Part shown: piece after piece, positions 4,196-14,807 of the stretch
Numbering within the stretch: the first letter of the stretch is position 1
Layout of the letters: each line of letters starts with the position of its first letter
DNA from: Chrysochromulina parva
Lineage: Eukaryota; Haptophyta; Prymnesiales; Chrysochromulinaceae
Assembly (NCBI GenBank): GCA_002887195.1
Contig: PJAB01001396.1
Span: 1-14,807, forward strand
Direction of reading: 5' to 3'
DNA: 14,807 nucleotides
Position numbers and translations under genes: made by a program
Notes under the pieces: model-generated
What the model was told of the DNA's origin: nothing
The model's input: the letters and a program-made list of their open reading frames with translations, nothing else
Databases searched by the model: none

Positions 4196-7100
4196 ATGGC
4201 CGCCCGCGACCGAGAGCCTTCATCGCGGACCGAGTGGGCCACGATTACCGGGCCGCGCAACACCGCCGCGCCACCCGAGGATGAGCTTTTCTTCGACTTT
4301 GCCGCTCGGCATGCTGTCGAAGCCCAAGCCAATATGGCCATTGCGTACGAGACGGTAATCAACCAGATACCAGTGGTGGGCGAAGTGCAGAATCTCGTGG
4401 ACCAGGGCTTCAATTCCCTAAGGCGCGTCAGCATGCAAAAGGCCGATGAGGTCATTGCCCTGCAGGCAAGCCGCATGATGAGCTCGATCGGCGCGACGAT
4501 GCTGAACTCGCTGCACGACCACGCCATGCCGCGAGCCGTGCGCATCGTCGTCGACAACGTGTACGGCGAGCTCTGGCCTGAGGTGAAGCGCTCTCTTGTC
4601 GATTCGGTCATGCTCGACCTCGGCCTCGAATTCCGCGAGCTCCGCGCCAAGCAGGATATGCACCACGCCGATCCACCGCGCGGTTGGCTCAAGTGGTGCG
4701 CGGCCCGGCTGATCTACGCGATGGAGCCGTACGATTTGACCATCTGGGGCACGATCCGCAGCCCGCTCTCGCTCTTCATCAGGCTCCTCTTCCTCTTTCC
4801 TCTGTACGGCGTCTCCGACGTGATGGTCATCCTTCTCGCAGCCGCAAAGTACTTTACGGACTTCGACGAGTACGTGGCAGCGTGCCCACCTTGCATGGGC
4901 TCTCCCTGATGACCTCTGATGACCTCTGTTGACCTCTGATGACTTCGGATGGCCTCCCTAATCAGGTACGGCCTCATCGAGTTCATCGTCACAGCGAAGA
5001 AGCTCCAGTTCTTCACCTCGGGCCTCGTCGCCGGCTGCGTGGGCTTCGCCAAGCTCTTCGTGTGCGCCACGCAGCCCTCCGACGGCGAGCTGAGACTCGA
5101 GGACTTCGCAGGCGCCGTCCCGAGCAGCCCCGCGTACGCCTGCGCCGTCTTCTACCCCGGCTCGCACACAACGTTCCCATTTGAGTTCTTCTTGTTCGTC
5201 GTGCGCTCATTGCTGCTCTGGGGCGCCTTCGTGCTGCTCTGGCACTACGACGCGCTCGTCGAGGGTGGCCGTGTCGCCTTGCGCGCCCTACGGGGTCAGC
5301 AGAAGCTTCGTCACGAGGTACAGAGATTCGTCAGATTCGTCAGATTCGTCAGATTCGTCAGATTCGTCAGAGATTCGTCACGAGCTTCGCCAGCAGAAGC
5401 TTCGTCACGAGGAGCGTCGCGGGCTGCATGGGCTCCCCAGCATGCAACCGCCGCACGCCAGTGCTCACCACGGCGCCCCCCTCCCCCACAGGAGCGTCGC
5501 GGGCTGCATTGGCTCCCCACGACCATCGGGCTGCTCGTGCTCAGCTGGTCGCTCTGGCTCGCCATCTTCTGGCTCGTTGCTCTCAACCTTTACCAGGTGC
5601 CCCGATGGTGGGACGAGCCGTTGGCCAGATGGCTCGATCTGCTGCTCGTGTGCACGTGCGTGCAACTCTTCATCAACCGTCTACTCACATTCCCGTGTGT
5701 CACCGCCACGCCAGCCAAGGTAAGGCTTAGGCCTCTCCACACTCTGATGACTTTCTGATGACTTTCTGATGACTTTCTGATGACTTTCTGATGACTTTCT
5801 GATGACCTTCTGATGACCCTCTGATGACCCTCTGATGACCTTCTGATGACCCTCTGAAGACCCTCTGATGACCCTCTGATGACCTTCTGATGACCCTCTG
5901 AAGACCTTCTGATGACCCTCTGATGACCCTCTGATGACCCTCTAATGGCGCAGGTCTGCCTCGGCTTCTCGGTTATCACCCTCGTGTACCTCGCCCCACG
6001 CGCCGAGGTGGTCACCCTCCTCGGTCAACTGCTGTTTGGCATCGACGGCACCTCAGCCACCTCCGCCACCGCAGCCGACGCCGCCTCCGCCGCCTCCTCC
6101 TCCGCATCCTCCGCCACCGCCGCCGCCACAGCCGCAGAAGCCATGAGCGGCTCGCTGTTCCCGCCCGCCATTGGGTTCTCCTTTGTGAACTCAAGTGTGA
6201 ACGCAAGTGTGAACGCAAGTGCTCTCGAGATCTTCGAGCTCGATGCCGCAAGATGGCTCGGGGCGCTGCCGCTGCCGCACGCGCTCATCACGGCGCTCGC
6301 GGACTTGGAGCGTCTGCCCAAGCTGCTTGCCTTTGCGCTCTCGCTCGTCGCCTGCGTCCTCGCGTACGGGCTCATCGATCTGCAGGTGAGCTCCACGAGT
6401 GCTGATGGCCTCTGATTGCTGTATGATTGCTGTATGATTGCTGTATGATTGCTGTATGATTGCTGTTTGATTGCTGTTTGATTGCTGTTTGATTGCTGTG
6501 TGATTGCTGTTGATTGATGTAAAGATTGCCACTGATGGCTCGGCGCATGCATCCGTTCTCGCATGGGCAGCGCGTGGCATCTCGCAGGGACGAGGTCGCC
6601 GTCATCTCTCTCCAACGGCTGATGCTCGCAATCGACGCCGATGCCGAGGGCTCCATCTCACGTTCCGAGCTGCGCACCAAGTAAGGAAGGCCGTTGGCCG
6701 TTGGGCCGCTCCTGGATGCATGCACGCGCTCACCACCGCGCCATCGCCTCCCCGCAGGTTCTTTGCGTACTTCGTGCTGCCGTTGGCGTCGGCGCCCGCG
6801 GTGAACGCCCAGCACGACGCGGGTGGCGCCCGGGACGGCGCGCTCGCCGCCAGGGCGCGGCACGAGGCCACTCAGCGAGAGAGGCAGCAGAAGCTCGCGG
6901 TGCAGCAGGGGGAGCGCGAGTTTGAGTTCTTCTGGTCCGAGCTCAAGAAGAATGCCGACGGGCGGGTGGGAGCCCTACGACTGATGACCTTCTAATGACC
7001 TTCTGATGACCTTCTAATGACCTTCTAATGACCTTCTAATGACCTTCTAAGGGCGGGTGGGAGCCCTTCGACCTGCCTGCCTGCCTGAGTACCCTCGAGT

Positions 7101-8590
7101 GCGTCTGCGTGCGACCGAGTGCGACTGAGTGTGACTGAGTGCGACTGAGTGTGACTGAGTGCGACGGATGGCAGGTGGGCATGGAGGAGCTCGCGGAGCA
7201 TTACGGCGTGCTTCACCTCATACGGACCGCTCGCCCCTCAACGCGTGCCCAAGACGACGCACATCTGGACTCTCGCTACATCGAGCAGGCGAGCAGCCGC
7301 TGAGTGCACCAGATTGGCCTCCGATAGGCCGCTGATTGGCCGCTGAGTGGCCTCTCAGTGCCCTCTGGTGGCCGACGCAAGCTCAACGGCTCGAGGAGCT
7401 GCATGAAAGTGCTCACCACGGCGCGCCCCCCCTCGCCCCCCTCCCCTCCCCCCTCCCCTCCCCCTTTCAGCGGCTCGAGGAGCTGCATGCCAACCAGCAG
7501 ACCGACGGGCGGCTGAGCGCAAGGTACCCAGCTGGCTCGCCCCTCGCCTATTGCCTTGCATGCAAGTGCCCACCACGGCGCTCCCGCCCCCTTCCCCACA
7601 GGTACCCAGCTGGCTCGCTCGTCTATTGGGTGCTATGGGACGTCTTTGCCTTCGTCTTCGGATGGGCAGTCACGCTGCCCTTCCTCCTGTGCGAGCTCAG
7701 CCGTGTGCATTCCTTCGACGACCTGCTGCTCGACTGGAGGCTGCGCTGCGCCCTCTACTTCTGCAAGGTGTGCTTGATGAGTTCCTGATGACCCTTGATG
7801 ACCCTTGATGACGGCTTCTGCAAGGTGCACACATCGCCCTCATCTATGTTTTCGCGCGGCATGCAAGTGCTCACCACGGCGCTCCACCGCCCCCCCACCA
7901 GGTGGTGATCGCCCTCATGTCGTTCCCGTTCCTCGTCTTCGCGCTGCCCCTCGTGCAGGACTGGGTGACACACGTGAAGCCGACCGGCTATGACCGGAGT
8001 GGCAAGTACGGAGATTGAGATTGAGATTGAGATTGGGATTGGGATTGGGATTGAGATTGAGATTCACACGTGAAAAGCCGACCGGCTACGACCGGAGTGG
8101 CAAGTACGTGCCCAAGATGTGCGTCGCTCTGCATGCAAGCGCTCACCACGGCGCCTCGCCCCCTCCTATGGATCCTCACAGGTGCGTGCCCAAGATGAGC
8201 GTCGCTCAGATCAAGGCCAAGTTCCGCTTCCAGCAGACCGTGCGCAAGAAGCAGCAGCTGGCCAGCGCCGCCGGAGGCGTGCGTCCCTCGACGTGCTGCG
8301 GACTGCCGTGCGGACTTTGCGAGCGTGACGAAACTTGGTGGGACCGGATGCTCGGCATCGAGGTCTTGGACGGCGCGCACGACGTCGACGTTGACGGCGC
8401 CCATTGCGGCGCTCATGCTGGGCAGCAGGACGGCGTGGTGGACGAGGCACGCAAGGCGCGCGTCAAGCAGCTGCGCAAGGAGAGGCTGCCCGAGGCCACG
8501 CTGCTACCCATCGTGCATTCCAAAGAAGCCCACCTGGAGGGCAAGCTGCAGATCCATGGCGACCCCTCGTCCATGTACATGATGCTGTGA
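4196..8590 (+). CDS. Multi-pass membrane protein with EF-hand, 11 exons (function unknown)
   Basis: Exons: 4196-4869, 4966-5317, 5492-5719, 5954-6385, 6571-6680, 6758-6965, 7175-7288, 7471-7523, 7602-7767, 7902-8005, 8182-8590. Joined, they give 2,850 bases, exactly 949 codons plus TGA, and frame and phase agree at every junction. The N-terminal 185 residues are soluble and mostly helical. Hydrophobic segments lie near residues 188-217, 240-257, 293-318, 351-375, 388-408, 419-445, 533-560, 729-757 and 774-798, so about nine membrane passes. An Ala/Ser/Thr-rich stretch (about 451-478) and three N-glycosylation sequons (NSS, NAS, NAS, near 491-501) lie in the loop before the 533-560 segment. 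A textbook EF-hand loop, DADAEGSISRSE (584-595), and a weaker one, KKNADGRVGMEE (662-673, Lys in place of the first Asp), suggest Ca2+ sensing between two membrane blocks. The tail has a Cys-rich patch and ends SSMYMML. The FDEYGLIEFIV stretch recalls uncharacterised protist membrane proteins, from memory only. A channel or transporter role is a guess. Confidence 0.78.
4870..4965 (+). other. Intron 1 (GT-AG, 96 bp)
   Basis: Donor GA|GTACGTGG and acceptor AATCAG|GTACGG join FDE to YGLIEF in phase. The intron start and the downstream exon start share GTACG, as a short target duplication would leave. It contains about four imperfect 10-bp CTGATGACCT units and CTAAT just before the acceptor, a candidate branch point. 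Confidence 0.75.
5325..5380 (+). repeat. 9-bp minisatellite GATTCGTCA in intron 2
   Basis: Five perfect tandem units, then a two-base break and a sixth unit. It lies between two copies of the exon 2 end. Confidence 0.92.
5440..5491 (+). mobile_element. Introner-like element, copy in intron 2
   Basis: Starts GCATGCAA, contains GTGCTCACCACGGCGC, then a C-rich tract ending CCCACAG at the splice site. Flanking 28-bp direct copies (5412-5439 and 5492-5519, one mismatch) resemble a target duplication. Confidence 0.75.
5720..5953 (+). other. Intron 3 (GT-AG, 234 bp, mostly minisatellite)
   Basis: Donor AAG|GTAAGG and acceptor GGCGCAG|GTC join TPAK to VCLGF in phase. Apart from 24 bases after the donor and the last 12 bases, the intron is an 11-bp tandem array. 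It has no introner core. Confidence 0.82.
5744..5941 (+). repeat. 11-bp minisatellite CTGATGACYYT, 18 units
   Basis: Eighteen uninterrupted 11-bp units. The first five end in TTT, and later ones alternate between CTT and CCT endings, with two CTGAAG variants. Each unit holds a CTGAT or CTGAA motif; a CTAAT follows the last unit, 12 bases before the exon. Confidence 0.95.
6386..6570 (+). other. Intron 4 (GT-AG, 185 bp)
   Basis: Donor CAG|GTGAGC is near-ideal. The acceptor ATGGGCAG|CGC keeps phase and leads into the EF-hand exon (RVASRRDEVAVISL). A later AG at 6587 is out of phase. The 3' part contains GCATGC (6545-6550), possibly a decayed introner start, but no CACCACGGCGC. Confidence 0.7.
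6413..6510 (+). repeat. 11-bp minisatellite TGATTGCTGTW in intron 4
   Basis: Eight full 11-bp units plus one 10-bp unit. The last base changes in blocks (A in the first four, T in the next three, then G), as expected for stepwise expansion. Confidence 0.95.
6681..6757 (+). other. Intron 5 (GT-AG, 77 bp)
   Basis: Donor CAA|GTAAGG, acceptor CCCGCAG|GTTC; joins RTK to FFAYF in phase two. It interrupts the gene just after the EF-hand loop and consists largely of one introner copy. Confidence 0.8.
6718..6757 (+). mobile_element. Introner-like element, copy in intron 5
   Basis: GCATGCACGCGCTCACCACC followed by GCGC, a C-rich tract and CCGCAG at the splice site. One mismatch to the core, and no clear flanking duplication, so it may be an older copy. 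Confidence 0.68.
6981..7050 (+). repeat. 11-bp minisatellite CTRATGACCTT in intron 6
   Basis: Six units plus a CTAA remnant, of the same type as the array in intron 3 but mostly CTAAT, the classic branch-point core. It is bracketed by 22-bp direct repeats. Confidence 0.93.
7111..7160 (+). repeat. 10-bp minisatellite GYGACTGAGT in intron 6
   Basis: Five 10-bp units alternate GCGAC and GTGAC starts, a 20-bp higher-order pattern, close to the acceptor. It is distinct from the 11-bp array in the same intron. Confidence 0.9.
7289..7470 (+). other. Intron 7 (GC-AG, 182 bp)
   Basis: The only phase-preserving donor before the in-frame TGA is GAGCAG|GCGAGC, a GC-type donor with good flanks. The acceptor is CTTTCAG|CGG, joining SRYIEQ to RLEELHA. 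A degenerate GGCC/CTGATTGGCC array (about 7313-7372) precedes the introner copy. Confidence 0.65.
7401..7470 (+). mobile_element. Introner-like element, copy in intron 7
   Basis: GCATGAAAGTGCTCACCAC then GGCGC, a long C/T tract and CTTTCAG. An 18-bp perfect direct repeat, CGGCTCGAGGAGCTGCAT, flanks it at 7387-7404 and 7471-7488. The downstream copy is exon 8 coding sequence. Confidence 0.82.
7524..7601 (+). other. Intron 8 (GT-AG, 78 bp) with exon-derived donor
   Basis: Donor CAAG|GTACCCAGC, acceptor CCACAG|GTACCCAGC. The first 16 bases of the intron (7524-7539) equal the first 16 of exon 9 (7602-7617). Duplication of an AGGT-containing exon sequence thus supplied the donor. This is the simplest example here of an introner plus target duplication. 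Confidence 0.85.
7558..7601 (+). mobile_element. Introner-like element, copy in intron 8
   Basis: GCATGCAAGTGCCCACCACG then GCGC, a C-rich tract and CCCCACAG. One mismatch to the core. Confidence 0.82.
7768..7901 (+). other. Intron 9 (GT-AG, 134 bp, composite)
   Basis: Donor AAG|GTGTGC, acceptor CCACCAG|GTGGTG; joins LYFCK to VVIALM. Inside, 7815-7850 is a diverged copy of the exon 9/exon 10 junction (CTTCTGCAAGGTG, then ATCGCCCTCAT). It lies between a short CTTGATGACC array (about 7784-7813) and the introner. Confidence 0.78.
7859..7901 (+). mobile_element. Introner-like element, copy in intron 9
   Basis: GCATGCAAGTGCTCACCACG then GCGC, a C-rich tract and CCCACCAG. It matches the core exactly. 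Confidence 0.82.
8011..8064 (+). repeat. 6-bp tandem repeat GRGATT, nine units, in intron 10
   Basis: Four GAGATT, three GGGATT and two GAGATT units, placed exactly between two copies of exon-derived sequence. Confidence 0.95.
8131..8181 (+). mobile_element. Introner-like element, copy in intron 10
   Basis: GCATGCAAGCGCTCACCACG then GCGC, a C-rich tract and CCTCACAG. GTGCCCAAGATG, any base, GCGTCGCT is repeated on both sides (from about 8108 and from about 8186). Confidence 0.82.
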
Positions 8591-8708
8591 ACGCCGACGT
8601 GCGGCACGAGTGGGCGTTATTGGGGGAGAGTTTCACAGCCAATTCACAGCCCATTCACACCCATCACAAAATTTTCGTCGGAGGTTGGGCCGCTATCCCG
8701 CCACAGCT
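8591..8708 (+). promoter_or_regulatory. Short intergenic spacer / 5' leader with 11-bp repeat
   Basis: Only 118 bp separate the membrane-protein stop from the next ATG, so it must carry a 3' end and probably a 5' leader. It holds three 11-bp units (8632-8664) of the type TTCACAGCCMA, and an AAAATTTT patch at about 8668-8675. No recognisable promoter element is visible. Confidence 0.45.
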
Positions 8709-9545
8709 ATGCCTTCGCCAATGGTCCAGCCCTCGCCACGCCAGCCGCTCTCTGCTCGCCAGGATGCCCTTCAACAGCGGCCCTTGGAGGCTAAGGACTT
8801 TATGCAAGCAGCCCTCGCCACGCAGGCCGTGAGCGACTCCGTCAAGGCGCTCATGGACCTGGCCTCCAAGTACGACGAGGAGCCATCGCCGTCGCAGCTG
8901 CAGAATAGCCGGCCTCGCGGCGGCCGTGCTGCATCTCCGACGCCGCAGCGACCGCCGGCGGCGCCGCAGCAGCCGCAGCGACCTCCGGCGGTGCCGCAGC
9001 AGGAAGAAGCGTGGCGACGGCACCGTGAGTACAAGGCGTCTCCGCAGCGCTCGACGCCGCGGGAGCTGTCTCCCGGTGCCGCAGCCTTCCGGGACGCGGC
9101 GCGTGCGAGACAGCCATCGTCGGTGCAGCCTTCGCTCCGCGGCTCGCCCTCTGTGCTGCCGCCTCCATCGTCCTCAGCGCACTCGATAACCGCTCCGCTG
9201 CCGCAAGCGCCGCCACATGCACCGTCGCAAGCGCCGTCGGTGGTTGCCGCGCGCTCGATGCCGCCGCCGCCGCCACCACCCTCGTCAGCCGGGGCGACAC
9301 CCTCGGCCTCGTCGTCGACGGCGCTGCACAGCGGCGCCGGCGCGTGCGCCATCGCCGGCGGCGGTCCCGCCGCCCTGCCGCCTCGCTCCTCATCGCCCGG
9401 CCTGCCGCCTCGCTCCTCGTCGCCACGCGGGGAGAGGACCCCCTGGGCGCATGCAAGCGCTCACCACGGCGCCCAGGAGAGGACCCCCTGGGTGCCTGCT
9501 GCGCGCAACGTCGCGACGCCTCGGACGGCGTCGCCGCGTCGGCCG

Positions 9546-9577
<32 letters not shown>

Positions 9578-12481
9578 GGGCAGCGCGCCCGACGGCGCGA
9601 CCGCCTCGCCACGCAGCGTCGCGGCCAATTGCGTCATAGAGGGCGCGGGGCTCGCCGAAGCGACCATCCGCGTGCCTGCCAAGTTCACGATCCGTGCGTT
9701 CGACGTGCGCGGCGCGCCGAGCCGCACGGGCGGCGAGCGGTTTCGCGTCGTCTTCCGCGGGCGCTCCGCGCCGCAGTGGAGCTTACACGATGTGGGCGAT
9801 GGCACGTACGAAGTCACCTACACGGTGACCGTCTCTGGCGAGTACGAGCTGCTCGTGCTGCTCGATGGCGTCGCGCTCGCCGGCTCGCCGTTTCGGCTCG
9901 TCGTCAAGGCAGGCATCGCGTGCCCCTCCAGCTGCCTCGCGAGCGGCGCCGGGCTGCATGAGGCGAGGGCGGGCGAACGAGCCAAGATCAGCGTGCGTGC
10001 CGTCGATCTCAACGGCCAGATGAAGAGTGCGGGCGGCGACTTTTTTGTAGCGGCTCTGCACGGCCCGTTTGCACCCTCCGTGCCCGACGTGGCAGGGCTC
10101 ACCTTGCCCGCATCGCTCCGTCTGCGGCTGGGCGACCAGCGCAACGGTCACTACGTCGGTACTTACACGGTCACGGCGGCGGGCAGCTACATGCTGGAGC
10201 TTCTCGAAGAGACCACCGGCGCGCCTGTGCACGGCTCTCCGTTCCGGGTCGAGGTCCTGCCAGGGCCGCTACACCCACCCTCATGCCGCCTCACGCCTGC
10301 GCTCACCACGGCGCCGCCCTCGACGACCCCCGAGGCGCTCACCACGGCGCTCATCACGGCGGGAGAGCAGGCGAGCGTCGACGTGGCGCTTTTTGACGAG
10401 TTCGGCAACGCGCTGCCGCACGCGGCCGCACGCGGCTTGCGTGTGCGCTTCGCGACGCCCGAGATGGCGCCGCAACTGCGCGCCAAGCCGTTTCGCACTG
10501 ACCCGCCCTCGCCGCCCTACCCACGACAGCCGTGGTCTCCACTCAAGGGCAGTTCCGGAGCGCGGAGCGGCAGCGGCAGCCTCGCCAACGGCGGCAGCAG
10601 CGGCCTCACAGCGGCTTCACAGCGGCCTCACAGCGGCTTCACAGCGGACGGGATGGTACCGGTAAGCAGCGGCAGCTCGACGGACTTCACAGCGGCTTCA
10701 CAGCGCGACGAGGCGGCCGTTGAAGAGGCGGCCGGCGAGGCGGCGGCGCGGGACACGACCCTCGGCGTGCACGACTGCCGCCTGCTACCCCTCGAGCATG
10801 GTTCTGCCTCGAGCGCCGTCGCGGCCGGTGGCGTGAACAGCAGCTGCGTCAGCGGGATGGGGTTCAGCAGCGGCGGCGTCTTTGGCGCCGGCGCCGGCAC
10901 GTACAGCAGCTGCGTCAGCGGCTGCGACGGCGGCGGTGGCGGCGGCGGCGGCGGCGGCGGCGGTGCGAGCACTCGGCTTGTCTTCGTCCCCACCCACGCC
11001 GGCGAGCTGCGCGTGGTCATCCTCGACGGGAACGCGATGCTCGGGGGAGGTCCACTCACGTTCACAGTACGGGCCGGTGAGGTGCATCCTCCCAGCTGCC
11101 TGGTCCGCGGCGAGGGCGCGACGCATGCCGTCGCAGGTGAGCTCGCTCAACTGTCCGTGTTCGTGCGCGACCGCTTCGGCAACCCGGTGACGCATGAAGA
11201 TCGGCTGCCGATCGTAGCAGAGCTACGGGGCAAGCATCGCTCGCCTGTGCTGGCGCAGACGGTCGATCTGCGGACGGGGGAATATCAGCTGAGCTACACC
11301 GCGAAAGAGAGCGGCGAGCAGCCGTTGCATGTCTATATTAGGAAGGAGCCCATCGGCGGCTCGCCCTTCACAGTGCTCGTGCAAGCCGGCCGGGCGCTCG
11401 CCGCACAAAGCGAGGTGGACACGTCGAAGCTGCTCGGTTTGCGCGTGGGCGTGCCCGCTGCCTTTGTGGTCCACGCGTACGATCGACACAAGAATCGAGC
11501 GTGGCGCGGCGGCGAGCAGTTTGGGGCCGCGCTGCGTGGGCCCGACGGCCAACGCGTCGAGCTCAGCCTCACCGACCAGGGCGACGGCACGTACTCCGGC
11601 TCGATGGTCTGCCGTCAGGTGGGCATGCATCACCTCGAGACCTTTCTTGAACAAACGCCGCTTGGGGTCTCTCCGCATGCGATCTTGTGTGAGTCGGGGC
11701 CGCCGCGCGCGCGCTGCTCGGTCGCGCGTGCCAACTTTCTGCGCCGCGCCGACGGCGCGCTCACGGAGGGGTGCGCCGACGCCGACGGCGACGGCGAGGG
11801 CGACAACGTGGTTGCGCCGGGCGGCGCGTCGGCCGCCTCAGGTGGCGCGGTGCCGAGTCACGAGGGGGGAGCGTCACAGCCTCCACGTGTGCTCGTGGCA
11901 GGGGAGGAGGCGATGATCAGCCTCGCCTCCATGGACGCGAGCGGCAATGCCGCGCTCAGCGAGCCTGCCGACTGGCTCGTGCGCCTCTCGCCGTTGCGCT
12001 CGACCTCTGGCACCTCGGAGGTGGTGGCGCGCGTCCGCCGCAGCGCCGACCGACGCACCTGTGCAGCCGTGCTGAGCCTGGCTGCGGCGGGAGAGTACTC
12101 GTGCTCCGTGTTCCTGCGGGGCGAGCCGATCGACGGCTCGCCTTTCCTCTTGAACGTGCGCGCGGGACAAGTGGATGCTCGCCGCTCCGGGCTCGACGAC
12201 ACGCCGGGCAGCCTCCTCGACTGCTGCGCCGGCCAGGAAGGGCGCTTTGTGCTCGTGTGTCGCGACTCGTCGGGCAACCGCGTGGCTCAGGGCGGCGAGC
12301 GTGTCGCCGTGCAGCTGCGTTGCCTCGCGAATGGCCTCGCGCAGCGTGCCGCGGTCGTCGACCAGGGCGACGGGAGCTACTTGGTGCGCTATCGGCCCGA
12401 GGTCGCGTGTGAACACGAGGTGCATGCGTGGATCCTCCAACGGGCCACGCCCACGCCCGCCCAGGACGGCGCTGAGAGCGC

Positions 12482-12523
<42 letters not shown>

Positions 12524-13778
12524 CGGCAAGGAGGGGCGCGTGCGTTGGGCCGAGGAAGAGGGAACAGCCTTGCCCATGGGCGGCATGCCGTATAAACTCT
12601 GGGTGCTCCCTGGCCCCCTCTCGTGCGGCATGAGCGGCGAGCTGCCTGCCGAACGACGTGAGTACACCTTCGTCGCGGGCGAGGCCGGGATCCTCTCGCT
12701 GCAGCTGCGCGATGCTCTCGGCAACGCCCGTTCTCCGAGCGGCGAACACTTTGTAGCGACGCTCGAGCGACGGAGCCCAACGGGCGCAACGGGCGGCGGC
12801 GCGGCGGGCGCGGCGGCGGCGCTGGCCCCGGCGACCGCCGACTCGGCCGACTCGGAGATTGAATCTCGGGCCGACTCAGATCAGTCCAGCTTGGGCCTCC
12901 GGGCCGATCCGGAAGAGAGGCACGCGGCGAGTCTCGCCGAGGCGGTGCGCGAGGCGACGGCGGCGCCGAGGACCACGGATTACCATCCGCTGGCCACGCC
13001 CAAGGTGAGCACCAGCGAGGATGGGCAGCGACTGCGCGTCACCTTCACAGCCACGCGCGCCGAACAGCTGCTCCTCCACGTGGCCATGCGAAGCGCCGTC
13101 TCGGGCACCGACGGCAGCGAGGAGGTGCCCCTGAGGGGGTCGCCGTACACAGTGGACATTGTGCCCGGCGCAACGCTTCCCCGACGGTGCGAATCGTACG
13201 GCGAGGCGACGCACCGCGCGAGGGTGCGACAGCCGACGAGCTTCATCCTCGTCGCGCGCGACGCGCACGGGAACCGAAGGACGCACGGCGGCGATCACTT
13301 TCTGGTCTCGTTCCGTGGCCCGTGCAACCCTATTGGGCGCGTCTACGACCGCGGAGACGGCACGTACCGCGTCACGTGCACGTACGGCGTGAGCGGCCAC
13401 TGCAGCCTCGCAATCACGCTCCATCAGCAGCACGTGGCCGGCTCACCCTTCCGAATCATCGTTGACGGCCCCCTTCGACCGCCTCAAGCGCACCCAACTC
13501 ATGCCTCGATGGCGCCGCCCACGATGGCGCCGCCCATGGCCGACAACGACCAAGGTGGCCCACAGAAACGGCGTGCGCCGCCCACGGCGCCGGGCAGCAC
13601 CGCCACCGCCGGTGGCTCCGGAGCCGCGCCACGCGCCATCGTGGTCCATGACATTCGGGGCCGCGGCGCGGGCGGCGGCAATCGGCCGCTGAGCCCTCGA
13701 GGAGCGCCGGTAACCGTTAACAGCGCTGTCCGCGTCGGATTCCTCAGCAGTCCTAGCGTGAGCCCGCGGGAGCACTGA
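8709..13778 (+). CDS. Filamin-type immunoglobulin repeat protein (nine repeats)
   Basis: ATG 8709 (MPSPMVQPSPRQ) gives 1,689 residues in one uninterrupted frame; upstream in-frame sequence begins only with GTG. Residues 1-300 are Pro/Ser/Ala-rich and probably disordered, apart from a helical stretch KDFMQAALATQAVSDSVKAL. Nine filamin/ABP280 repeats follow, at about 307-402, 403-518, 519-790, 791-893, 894-996, 997-1153, 1154-1301, 1302-1487 and 1488-1586. Most show the hallmarks: VxAxDxxGN, GDGTYxVxYT, a GEYxLxVxLxG strand and a closing GSPFxxxVxxG. Repeats 3, 6, 7 and 8 are swollen by low-complexity inserts, including Gly runs of about 12 and 15. The tail (1587-1689) is Pro/Arg-rich. Filamin repeats act as protein-binding rods; no actin-binding CH pair, TRIM or NHL domain is seen, so the partner is unknown. 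Two regions related to the introners of the upstream gene are translated in frame (9431-9495 and about 10299-10361). Some inserts could be unrecognised introns. Confidence 0.82.
9431..9495 (+). mobile_element. Exonic, in-frame introner-like copy in the filamin gene
   Basis: GCATGCAAGCGCTCACCACG then GCGCCCAG (9449-9476) lies between 20-bp direct repeats (9431-9450 and 9476-9495, one mismatch). The repeat-to-repeat distance is 45 bp, so the frame is kept and it encodes HASAHHGAQ. It lacks the usual C-rich tract. Either it is translated or it is a very short intron. Confidence 0.7.
10299..10361 (+). repeat. Introner-core-related direct repeats in filamin repeat 3
   Basis: GCGCTCACCACGGCGC occurs at 10299-10314 and again at 10335-10350, followed by a variant (GCTCATCACGGCG). 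It is read as ALTTAP and ALTTAL in the third filamin repeat. The GCATGC start and terminal CAG of the intronic copies are absent. Confidence 0.75.
10603..10646 (+). repeat. 11-bp tandem repeat GCYTCACAGCG in coding sequence
   Basis: Four 11-bp units alternate CC and CT. As 11 is not a multiple of three, each unit is read in a different frame, giving LTAASQRPHSGFTA. Further copies follow at about 10684-10705. Confidence 0.92.
10837..10921 (+). repeat. 19-bp direct repeats 66 bp apart in filamin repeat 3
   Basis: ACAGCAGCTGCGTCAGCGG occurs at 10837-10855 and 10903-10921. The 66-bp offset keeps the frame, and both copies read SSCVSG. This is an insertion-with-duplication pattern like that around the introners, without the core. 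Confidence 0.8.
10929..10964 (+). repeat. GGC triplet run (polyglycine)
   Basis: Twelve Gly codons, nearly all GGC, end the low-complexity insert of filamin repeat 3. A second run of about 15 Gly codons lies at 12483-12527 in repeat 7. Confidence 0.9.
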
Positions 13779-14345: not shown

Positions 14346-14807
14346 ATGGCAGAGTACCCCAAGAACGTGCCGGCACGCCTCCCGCTGCTACCTCAGGACA
14401 TCAAGTGGCTGTCTACCGAGTACTATCAAGAAGCCCTGTCCGGCTTCAACCTATATGAGCCGTTATATTGGCTGCCCACCATCTCGTACCGCGTCGGCGA
14501 CTTCATGTTCTGGCCATGGATGATATCTACCATAGCCACCACTCTCGGCTGCTGCTACGTGGCTTACTTTCCGCATCATACAGAGTACTTTGACATGCCG
14601 CTAGACGCGCACATCGTCATGGGCAGTGCCCTCTCCTTCCTCGTCGTCATGCGGACTGATGCCTCGATGAACAGATGGTGGGAAGCACGGTGCACGTGGC
14701 AGACGATCAAATCATCTGCCTGCAATATTGCTGCGTGCACCGCGCCGATCCTGCGCAGCCCGGAGGCCACCGAGCTTGTCCTGATGCAGCTGATGGCGAT
14801 GCTGATG
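14346..14807 (+). CDS. Bestrophin-family anion channel, N-terminal part (3' end outside window)
   Basis: The frame starts at ATG 14346 (MAEYPKNVPARLPLLPQ) and stays open for 154 codons to the window edge. A first membrane segment (FWPWMISTIATTLGCCYVAY) starts near residue 58. A second lies near 90-106 and runs into FLVVMRTDASMNRWWEAR. This matches the bestrophin/UPF0187 hallmark of a hydrophobic helix followed by F-R-x-x-x-x-x-x-R-W-W-E-A-R. Bestrophins form pentameric chloride or bicarbonate channels; in algae and plants some sit in thylakoids, others in the plasma membrane. No transit peptide is obvious, so location is open. It lies on the same strand as the filamin gene, after about 570 bp. 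Family call is fairly sure; gene ends and later introns are unknown. Confidence 0.78.
   Translation, partial: MAEYPKNVPARLPLLPQDIKWLSTEYYQEALSGFNLYEPLYWLPTISYRVGDFMFWPWMISTIATTLGCCYVAYFPHHTEYFDMPLDAHIVMGSALSFLVVMRTDASMNRWWEARCTWQTIKSSACNIAACTAPILRSPEATELVLMQLMAMLM

Follow-up and report, generated by a model that had tools for sequence, protein, structure and literature searches.

The origin of introns in large numbers is a long-standing problem, and transposon-like introners and introns made by break repair have been treated as separate routes. Earlier introner families are described with target site duplications (TSDs) of 3–9 bp (PMC9860276). The closest of these are the introners of Symbiodinium microadriaticum and Chrysochromulina sp. 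(Figs. 2B and 2C of PMC9860276), which are similar introns at many loci that carry one splice site and co-opt the other, with either the 3′ site carried and the 5′ site recruited (the type A arrangement below) or the other way round (type B); both are reported with 4-bp TSDs, those of S. microadriaticum together with terminal inverted repeats (TIRs). The invasive repeated introns of another protist, Amoebophrya, are comparable in kind but differ in having 8–20 nt inverted repeats, 3–5 nt direct repeats and mostly non-canonical borders (PMC7789003), and the ascomycete introner-like elements are likewise similar introns that multiply across genes (PMC9860276, PMC3443670). On the side of break repair, new introns of Daphnia pulex are reported with repeats of 4–12 bp and are attributed to staggered break repair with complex, multi-step internal repeats, the source of most such introns being described as unknown (PMC4202315).

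The family described here was found in the genome of Chrysochromulina parva, starting from the window, that is, the whole stretch of 14,807 nucleotides that was analysed (contig PJAB01001396.1). In comparison with the S. microadriaticum and Chrysochromulina sp. introners, its TSDs are of varied length (median 22 bp in the type A arrangement and 16 bp in type B), no TIRs were found, and both arrangements are built on one core in one genome. It differs from the Daphnia introns in being a single recurring family, and from the ascomycete elements in its long TSDs and in having some copies outside introns. Neither long variable TSDs nor mirror-image forms of one core were found among the titles and abstract openings listed in searches of the open-licence literature on introners and intron gain.

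The core and its two arrangements

A search of the 45.07-Mb assembly (2,199 contigs) shows that neither the core nor the core with its C-rich tract is limited to gene 1 of the window. The 24-bp core occurs 1,838 times with at most three mismatches (916 forward, 922 reverse; none for the reversed control), the 14-mer GCTCACCACGGCGC 1,083 times exactly (control 5), and GCTCACCACGGCGC followed within 30 nt by the tail CCCCACAG 467 times (control 0). A 5′ part, GTACGTTGATTGCCACTGATGACCTGCCTT, is found 114 times with at most three mismatches, and CTGCCTT joined to the core and then the tail six times exactly, both with a control of 0. Loci for closer study were chosen by exact core (L009–L088, the first in contig order), by the 5′ part (L089–L128) or by the tail (L138–L177); proportions use L009–L088 only, and the counts for orientation, splice frame, left edge and microhomology, and length divisibility pool these differently chosen loci. 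Among the core-selected clusters 77 of 92 are intron-like, as tallied by a rule that calls a random position Y-tailed in 415 of 4,000 cases, and 16 of the 92 hold more than one core. At L031, L037, L040, L050, L103 and L126 the exon copy plus core, or the element unit, is repeated in tandem, with at most about six units in an array.

The copies in introns follow two orders. In type A the exon is followed by a GT that opens a copy of the start of the downstream exon, then by filler (0–31 nt in most), the core, a C-rich tract ending in CAG (13–27 nt in 53 of 54) and the next exon; the element itself carries the branch-point-like CTCAC, the C-tract and the CAG, and the 5′ splice site comes from the downstream-exon copy. 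In type B an exon ending in CAG is followed by GTACGTTGATTGCCACTGATGACCTGCCTT and the core, 0–17 nt in most cases, a copy of the upstream exon end that again ends in CAG, and the next exon. The type B core often reads CACAGCGC in place of CACGGCGC; this form carries GTACGTTGATTGCC... with its own GT (GTACG), and takes its 3′ splice site from the upstream-exon copy. One splice site is thus carried and one co-opted in both types, in sets (54 A and 28 B) that admitted only introns with a GT or GC donor and, in type B, an AG acceptor, which makes the presence of those bases a matter of construction; 24 of 107 candidates without canonical sites were dropped when the sets were built. The original prediction, of an element that supplies a 3′ splice site, holds for type A, but type B shares the core and carries a 5′ splice site instead, and some copies lie outside introns altogether.

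Base preferences at the exon edges fit the idea that each type needs only the splice site that it lacks. Any of the four bases can open the exon after a type B intron (G 15, C 6, T 4, A 3), and in 25 of 28 the AG is preceded by C. At type A introns 42 of 54 exons have G at −1, and 29 of 54 have A at −2. The 5′ part and the tail seldom occur together: of 199 matches 10 have both, 45 only the 5′ part, 71 only the tail and 73 neither (Fisher p = 5e-5; the 5′ part was one of the grounds on which this sample was selected). Copies that lack the 5′ part have a left edge that is sharp at GCATGC. In a sub-form of type A, seen at L033, L055 and L088, the ending is CCCTAATTAG and not CCCCACAG.

The distance from CTCAC to the intron end has a median of 27 nt in type A (n = 55, interquartile range 25–28) and 32 nt in type B (n = 27, 29–35.5), and the core probably supplies the branch point, at CTCAC; its conservation may reflect this work rather than recency. 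Median intron lengths are 77 nt (A) and 78 nt (B). The type A element, at about 42 nt, is perhaps too short to serve alone, and the duplicated exon would bring the introns to about 77 nt in both types.

Copies in the window

The window has 12 occurrences of the 14-mer GCTCACCACGGCGC at up to two mismatches, where 0.62 would be expected and none of 200 shuffles reached 12; five of them (at 6283, 10301, 10337, 10349 and 14255) do not have the full core and lie in coding sequence or on the reverse strand. Gene 1 (4196–8590, forward strand), modelled with splice junctions picked by eye, has 11 exons and 10 introns: 4870–4965, 5318–5491, 5720–5953, 6386–6570, 6681–6757, 6966–7174, 7289–7470, 7524–7601, 7768–7901 and 8006–8181. 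When spliced it gives one frame of 949 residues, and when unspliced it stops after 237. By eye the protein is membrane-like with an EF-hand-like stretch, and no Pfam match was found at E 0.001.

The span first proposed for the elements, 5318–8181, runs exactly from the start of intron 2 to the end of intron 10 in this gene model, and the core is present, as predicted, in introns 2, 5, 7, 8, 9 and 10. GCATGCAAG is intact only in introns 8, 9 and 10 and is degenerate in 2, 5 and 7, where the core has two, three and one mismatches respectively. The C-rich tract and terminal CAG are seen in all six, and copies of the downstream exon start are found at introns 2, 7, 8 and 10, slightly longer than the 16–28 bp first given. 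Seven homologs of gene 1 were found and aligned across the junctions. Junctions 1, 3, 4, 6, 9 and 10 are gap-free within ten residues in the first three homologs (junction 4 is gapped in homolog P0004), and junctions 2, 5, 7 and 8 lie near gaps in most. Since 9 and 10 are the only core-bearing junctions that are gap-free against relatives (7 is so in one homolog), the alignment backs core-bearing introns 9 and 10 well and 2, 5, 7 and 8 weakly.

Two of these introns are simple. Intron 8 is the cleanest type A copy, with its donor GT inside the first TSD copy (7522–7540), core at 7558–7581, tail at 7582–7601 and second TSD copy at 7600–7618, identical at 19 of 19 positions. Intron 5, of 77 nt, has its core at 6718–6741 and a tail that runs to the CAG at 6757; no direct repeat was seen around it. 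The other four are composite, with minisatellite or repeat stretches upstream of the element. Intron 2 comprises a minisatellite part and then a type A element, with a disturbed start of 13 bp at 5440, core at 5453–5476 and TSD copies at 5410–5439 and 5490–5519 (29/30 identical). Intron 7, which has a GC donor, has its core at 7401–7424, its C-tract at 7425–7470 and TSD copies at 7383–7404 and 7467–7488 (21/22). Intron 9 contains a TGATGACCCT minisatellite and disordered copies of both exon edges, so that its repeat is partial, with the core at 7859–7882 and tail at 7883–7901. Intron 10 has a GAGATT repeat, a 43-bp copy of the upstream exon end (8066–8108, 88%) and then a type A element, with core at 8131–8154 and TSD copies at 8101–8129 and 8179–8207 (26/29).

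Judged from this layout, only introns 5 and 8 look like simple insertions, and the other four (2, 7, 9 and 10) resemble older introns that an insertion has lengthened, where the new element seems to have displaced the acceptor. The proposal of six intron gains therefore stands in its simple form for introns 5 and 8 but not for the other four, with their older, repeat-bearing upstream parts. The two repeat copies of intron 7 differ, with TCAACGG in the first and TCAGCGG in the second; it looks as though an old acceptor decayed once the new one was in place. Together with the 43-bp exon copy that precedes the type A insert in intron 10, this difference suggests that introners in gene 1 may also rebuild existing introns. 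Minisatellites of 10–11 bp units are present in introns 1, 3, 6 and 9 (4906–4956, 5743–5947, 6984–7050 and 7786–7812), and their unit, which is TGATGACC or, in intron 6, ATGACC, corresponds to an internal stretch of the type B 5′ part (CACTGATGACCTGCC); they may be aged type B introners expanded by slippage.

A further copy, overlooked in the original prediction, lies at 9431–9495 on the forward strand in gene 2 (8703–13775), which encodes filamin repeats (PF00630). This copy, which we call type C, is in a coding exon with no intron: a 20-bp duplication (9431–9450 and 9476–9495, 19/20 identical) surrounds the core at 9449–9472, and the 45 bp added keep the filamin-repeat reading frame. Two exact copies of GCTCACCACGGCGC without GCATGCAAG, at 10301–10314 and 10337–10350, are in the same kind of coding frame, with no duplication seen. 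Type C is comparable to the Rickettsia palindromic elements, short mobile sequences that lie in frame within coding genes; those elements, however, are bacterial, larger and not intron-making. The window ends in a truncated third gene (14346–14807) that matches a bestrophin family (PF25539).

Splicing, reading frame and target duplications

The CAG had been predicted to be the 3′ splice site of an introner, and reading-frame analysis fits precise splicing. Starting from 107 candidates, with 24 non-canonical, two that were too short and 31 without confident flanks left out, and with 13 confident introns uninformative because their length is divisible by three, the frame expected from splicing was found in 34 of 36 distinct informative introns (23 of 24 in type A and 11 of 12 in type B), and the frame expected from read-through in none. 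Flank frames came from a codon model trained on 69 open reading frames, and L059, a single intron with two cores, is counted once. When the confidence filter is omitted, 50 of 61 informative introns fit splicing, six fit read-through (L024, L025, L040, L048, L092 and L099) and five fit neither. The predicted sense orientation is borne out by 95 of 100 callable copies, the orientation of 68 of 168 being unclear; sense to antisense counts are 38:1 in type A, 36:0 in type B and 5:0 in copies with both features. The genome-wide core, the share of intron-like clusters, the sense bias and the frame fit all support an introner family, and on these signs we hold it to be very probably a spliced one.

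The family has a built-in control, in that copies outside introns should keep the reading frame and introns need not, and this is the pattern in the lengths. When 172 clusters were sorted by rule, 153 fell out as intron-like, leaving 19 others. Of the 19, two have no duplication, and insertion length is divisible by three in 16 of the remaining 17; without L170, a locus selected by its CCCCACAG tail, and the window introns at 7400 and 8130, which the rule failed to recognise, the count is 13 of 14, the exception being L086. At L036, one of the 14, neither strand gives an open frame through the copy, which is therefore not clearly coding. In intron-like single-core clusters, by comparison, the length remainders modulo three are 36, 35 and 30, with 35 of 101 divisible by three. 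The share of antisense copies outside introns is uncertain, being firm at one locus: L038 is antisense in all three orientation analyses, the flanks of L022 and L036 give antisense where the frames through their inserts do not, and for L014 it is the reverse.

Direct repeats, at a flank match score of at least 12, border 107 of 133 core copies against 21 of 297 flank pairs taken from different loci, some of these matches coming from tandem units of repeat plus core. In 71 canonical type A copies (duplications under 9 bp excluded) the TSD is 9–70 bp long, with quartiles at 17.5 and 29, and the longest (70 bp, L079) is a tandem unit; in 25 type B copies (those under 7 or over 60 bp excluded) it is 7–33 bp, and 16 are free of mismatches. 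No duplication could be detected in 16 of 112 A copies. The type A duplications are mismatch-free in 30 of 71, with 65 mismatches in 1,714 bases overall, which makes the recent or continuing gain of such introns plausible. At the end of the TSD that is neutral for splicing no strong motif was found; C is at −1 in 0.55 of A copies against a background of 0.33, and the first TSD base in B is only C or G.

In 29 copies without the tail the second repeat abuts GCGC. Fifteen of these match over at least eight bases and were set aside, as they mostly read into a neighbouring core (the neighbour at L075 is a CCACGGCGC stretch without the full core), and 3–6 nt of microhomology are present in seven of the remaining 14. 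Copying of the filler from sequence up to 200 bp away gave no convincing signal, with p ≤ 0.05 in 7 of 52 tests, and copies with similar tails have no general tendency to share filler, 118 of 500 permutations scoring as high. One striking pair with filler alike, L065 and L069, was seen in this test of parent-to-daughter carry-over.

Origin of the family

Given the observed copy number, duplications, two architectures and reading-frame fit, our main reading, at a probability of roughly 0.57, is of a very short introner family on a 24-bp core that inserts at nonspecific staggered breaks. Insertion would mostly duplicate 10–50 bp of exon on both sides. A type A copy would then be spliced with its own CAG and the GT that starts the upstream copy of the downstream exon, and a type B copy with its own GT and the CAG that ends the second copy of the upstream exon; with one site carried and one recruited in each case, the mRNA would be restored. 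Copies with neither splice site would survive where the frame is kept, and their presence outside introns makes insertion look independent of splicing, with selection as the presumed sorter that keeps exact-splicing or frame-keeping copies. Long, uneven TSDs without TIRs would fit nonspecific staggered breaks, filled by end-joining capture or by retroposition, rather than the action of a DDE transposase.

Between these two ways of filling a break we lean slightly to capture, because no link to a LINE was found at five reverse transcriptase loci, and we hold capture to be possible at somewhat under an even chance; the sharp left edge at GCATGC counts against it, as the ends are not random in the way that simple fragment capture would leave them. 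SINE-like retroposition, in which a LINE enzyme would copy an RNA, perhaps an excised intron, into DNA at a nick in the target, is a substantial minority possibility. Long TSDs of unequal length would result, together with microhomology at the 3′ junction; the TSDs do vary in length, and seven of 14 copies show such microhomology where they meet GCGC. The filler that type A has on its 5′ side also agrees with this route, as do the exact GT and CAG ends. The genome further contains large open frames with reverse transcriptase matches (L129–L133, the last preceded by what by eye is an endonuclease-like domain), which look like LINE-like elements without the core. Yet these five loci lack both the core, even at six mismatches, and CCCCACAG, apart from one 14-mer with two mismatches in L133, and the core is absent from four of their 3′ flanks (L134–L137). 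Type A copies, moreover, are edged at GCATGC and not truncated at varied points, Rfam gave no matches in six sources, three consensus sequences fold no better than shuffles, and antisense copies outside introns, firm only at L038, would oppose an RNA route.

The remaining explanations are much less probable. An ordinary MITE-like DNA-transposon introner moved by a DDE transposase would accord with the 78.5% of assessable introner families outside ascomycetes reported with TSDs, TIRs or both (PMC9860276), but is unlikely here given TSDs of 9–70 bp (A) and 7–33 bp (B) against 3–9 bp in the earlier families of that report, inserts of as little as 25–28 bp between the duplicated copies (the window copy at 9449), and the lack of detectable TIRs (longest inverted match in A on average 3.05 against 3.17 in shuffles, n = 112; one type B variant consensus has a 5-bp inverted match). 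The mechanism proposed for the fungal introner-like elements, in which intron RNA is reverse-spliced into transcripts or DNA, would explain why the junctions are splice sites and why the sense bias is strong; long duplications are unexpected under it, as are frame-keeping copies outside introns and the consistently antisense L038, and we regard it as very unlikely. We think equally little of the AGGT-duplication route, in which exon segments are duplicated in tandem and the core fills the junction: AG-GT segments are indeed duplicated and some clusters hold more than one core, but the same 24-bp core and CCCCACAG tail at many loci are impossible by plain duplication. That the core is an immobile branch-point and acceptor consensus shared in a GC-rich genome is the least credible of all, since near identity over 24 bp with a control of 0, direct repeats and in-frame copies outside introns oppose it, even with the core at branch-point distance.

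Material outside the assembly adds one record. The end of an IMG/VR contig (L178, 4420–4554) has a minisatellite and a type A element with CACCACAG joined directly to GTGAG, the remainder being phage-like by eye; the contig is probably chimeric, but shows the element in another metagenome record. A bacterial match (L179) has no tail and was rejected as chance. A 29-base stretch of the 5′ part and core start was not found in IMG/VR, from which records near the source genome may be omitted.

The family resembles both of the routes that have been kept apart, being a repeated element with break-repair-like footprints. More tentatively, and with odds we consider rather low, the core could be a portable 24-bp branch-point module with no dedicated transposase, captured at staggered breaks, so that intron birth would be a selected outcome of repair. 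If this is true, an insert would become one of a pair of mirror-image introns, an acceptor replacement or an in-frame peptide according to the end that it retains and the site where it lands. The family also provides one genome in which many intron gains, acceptor replacements and exonic insertions by a single sequence could be compared.
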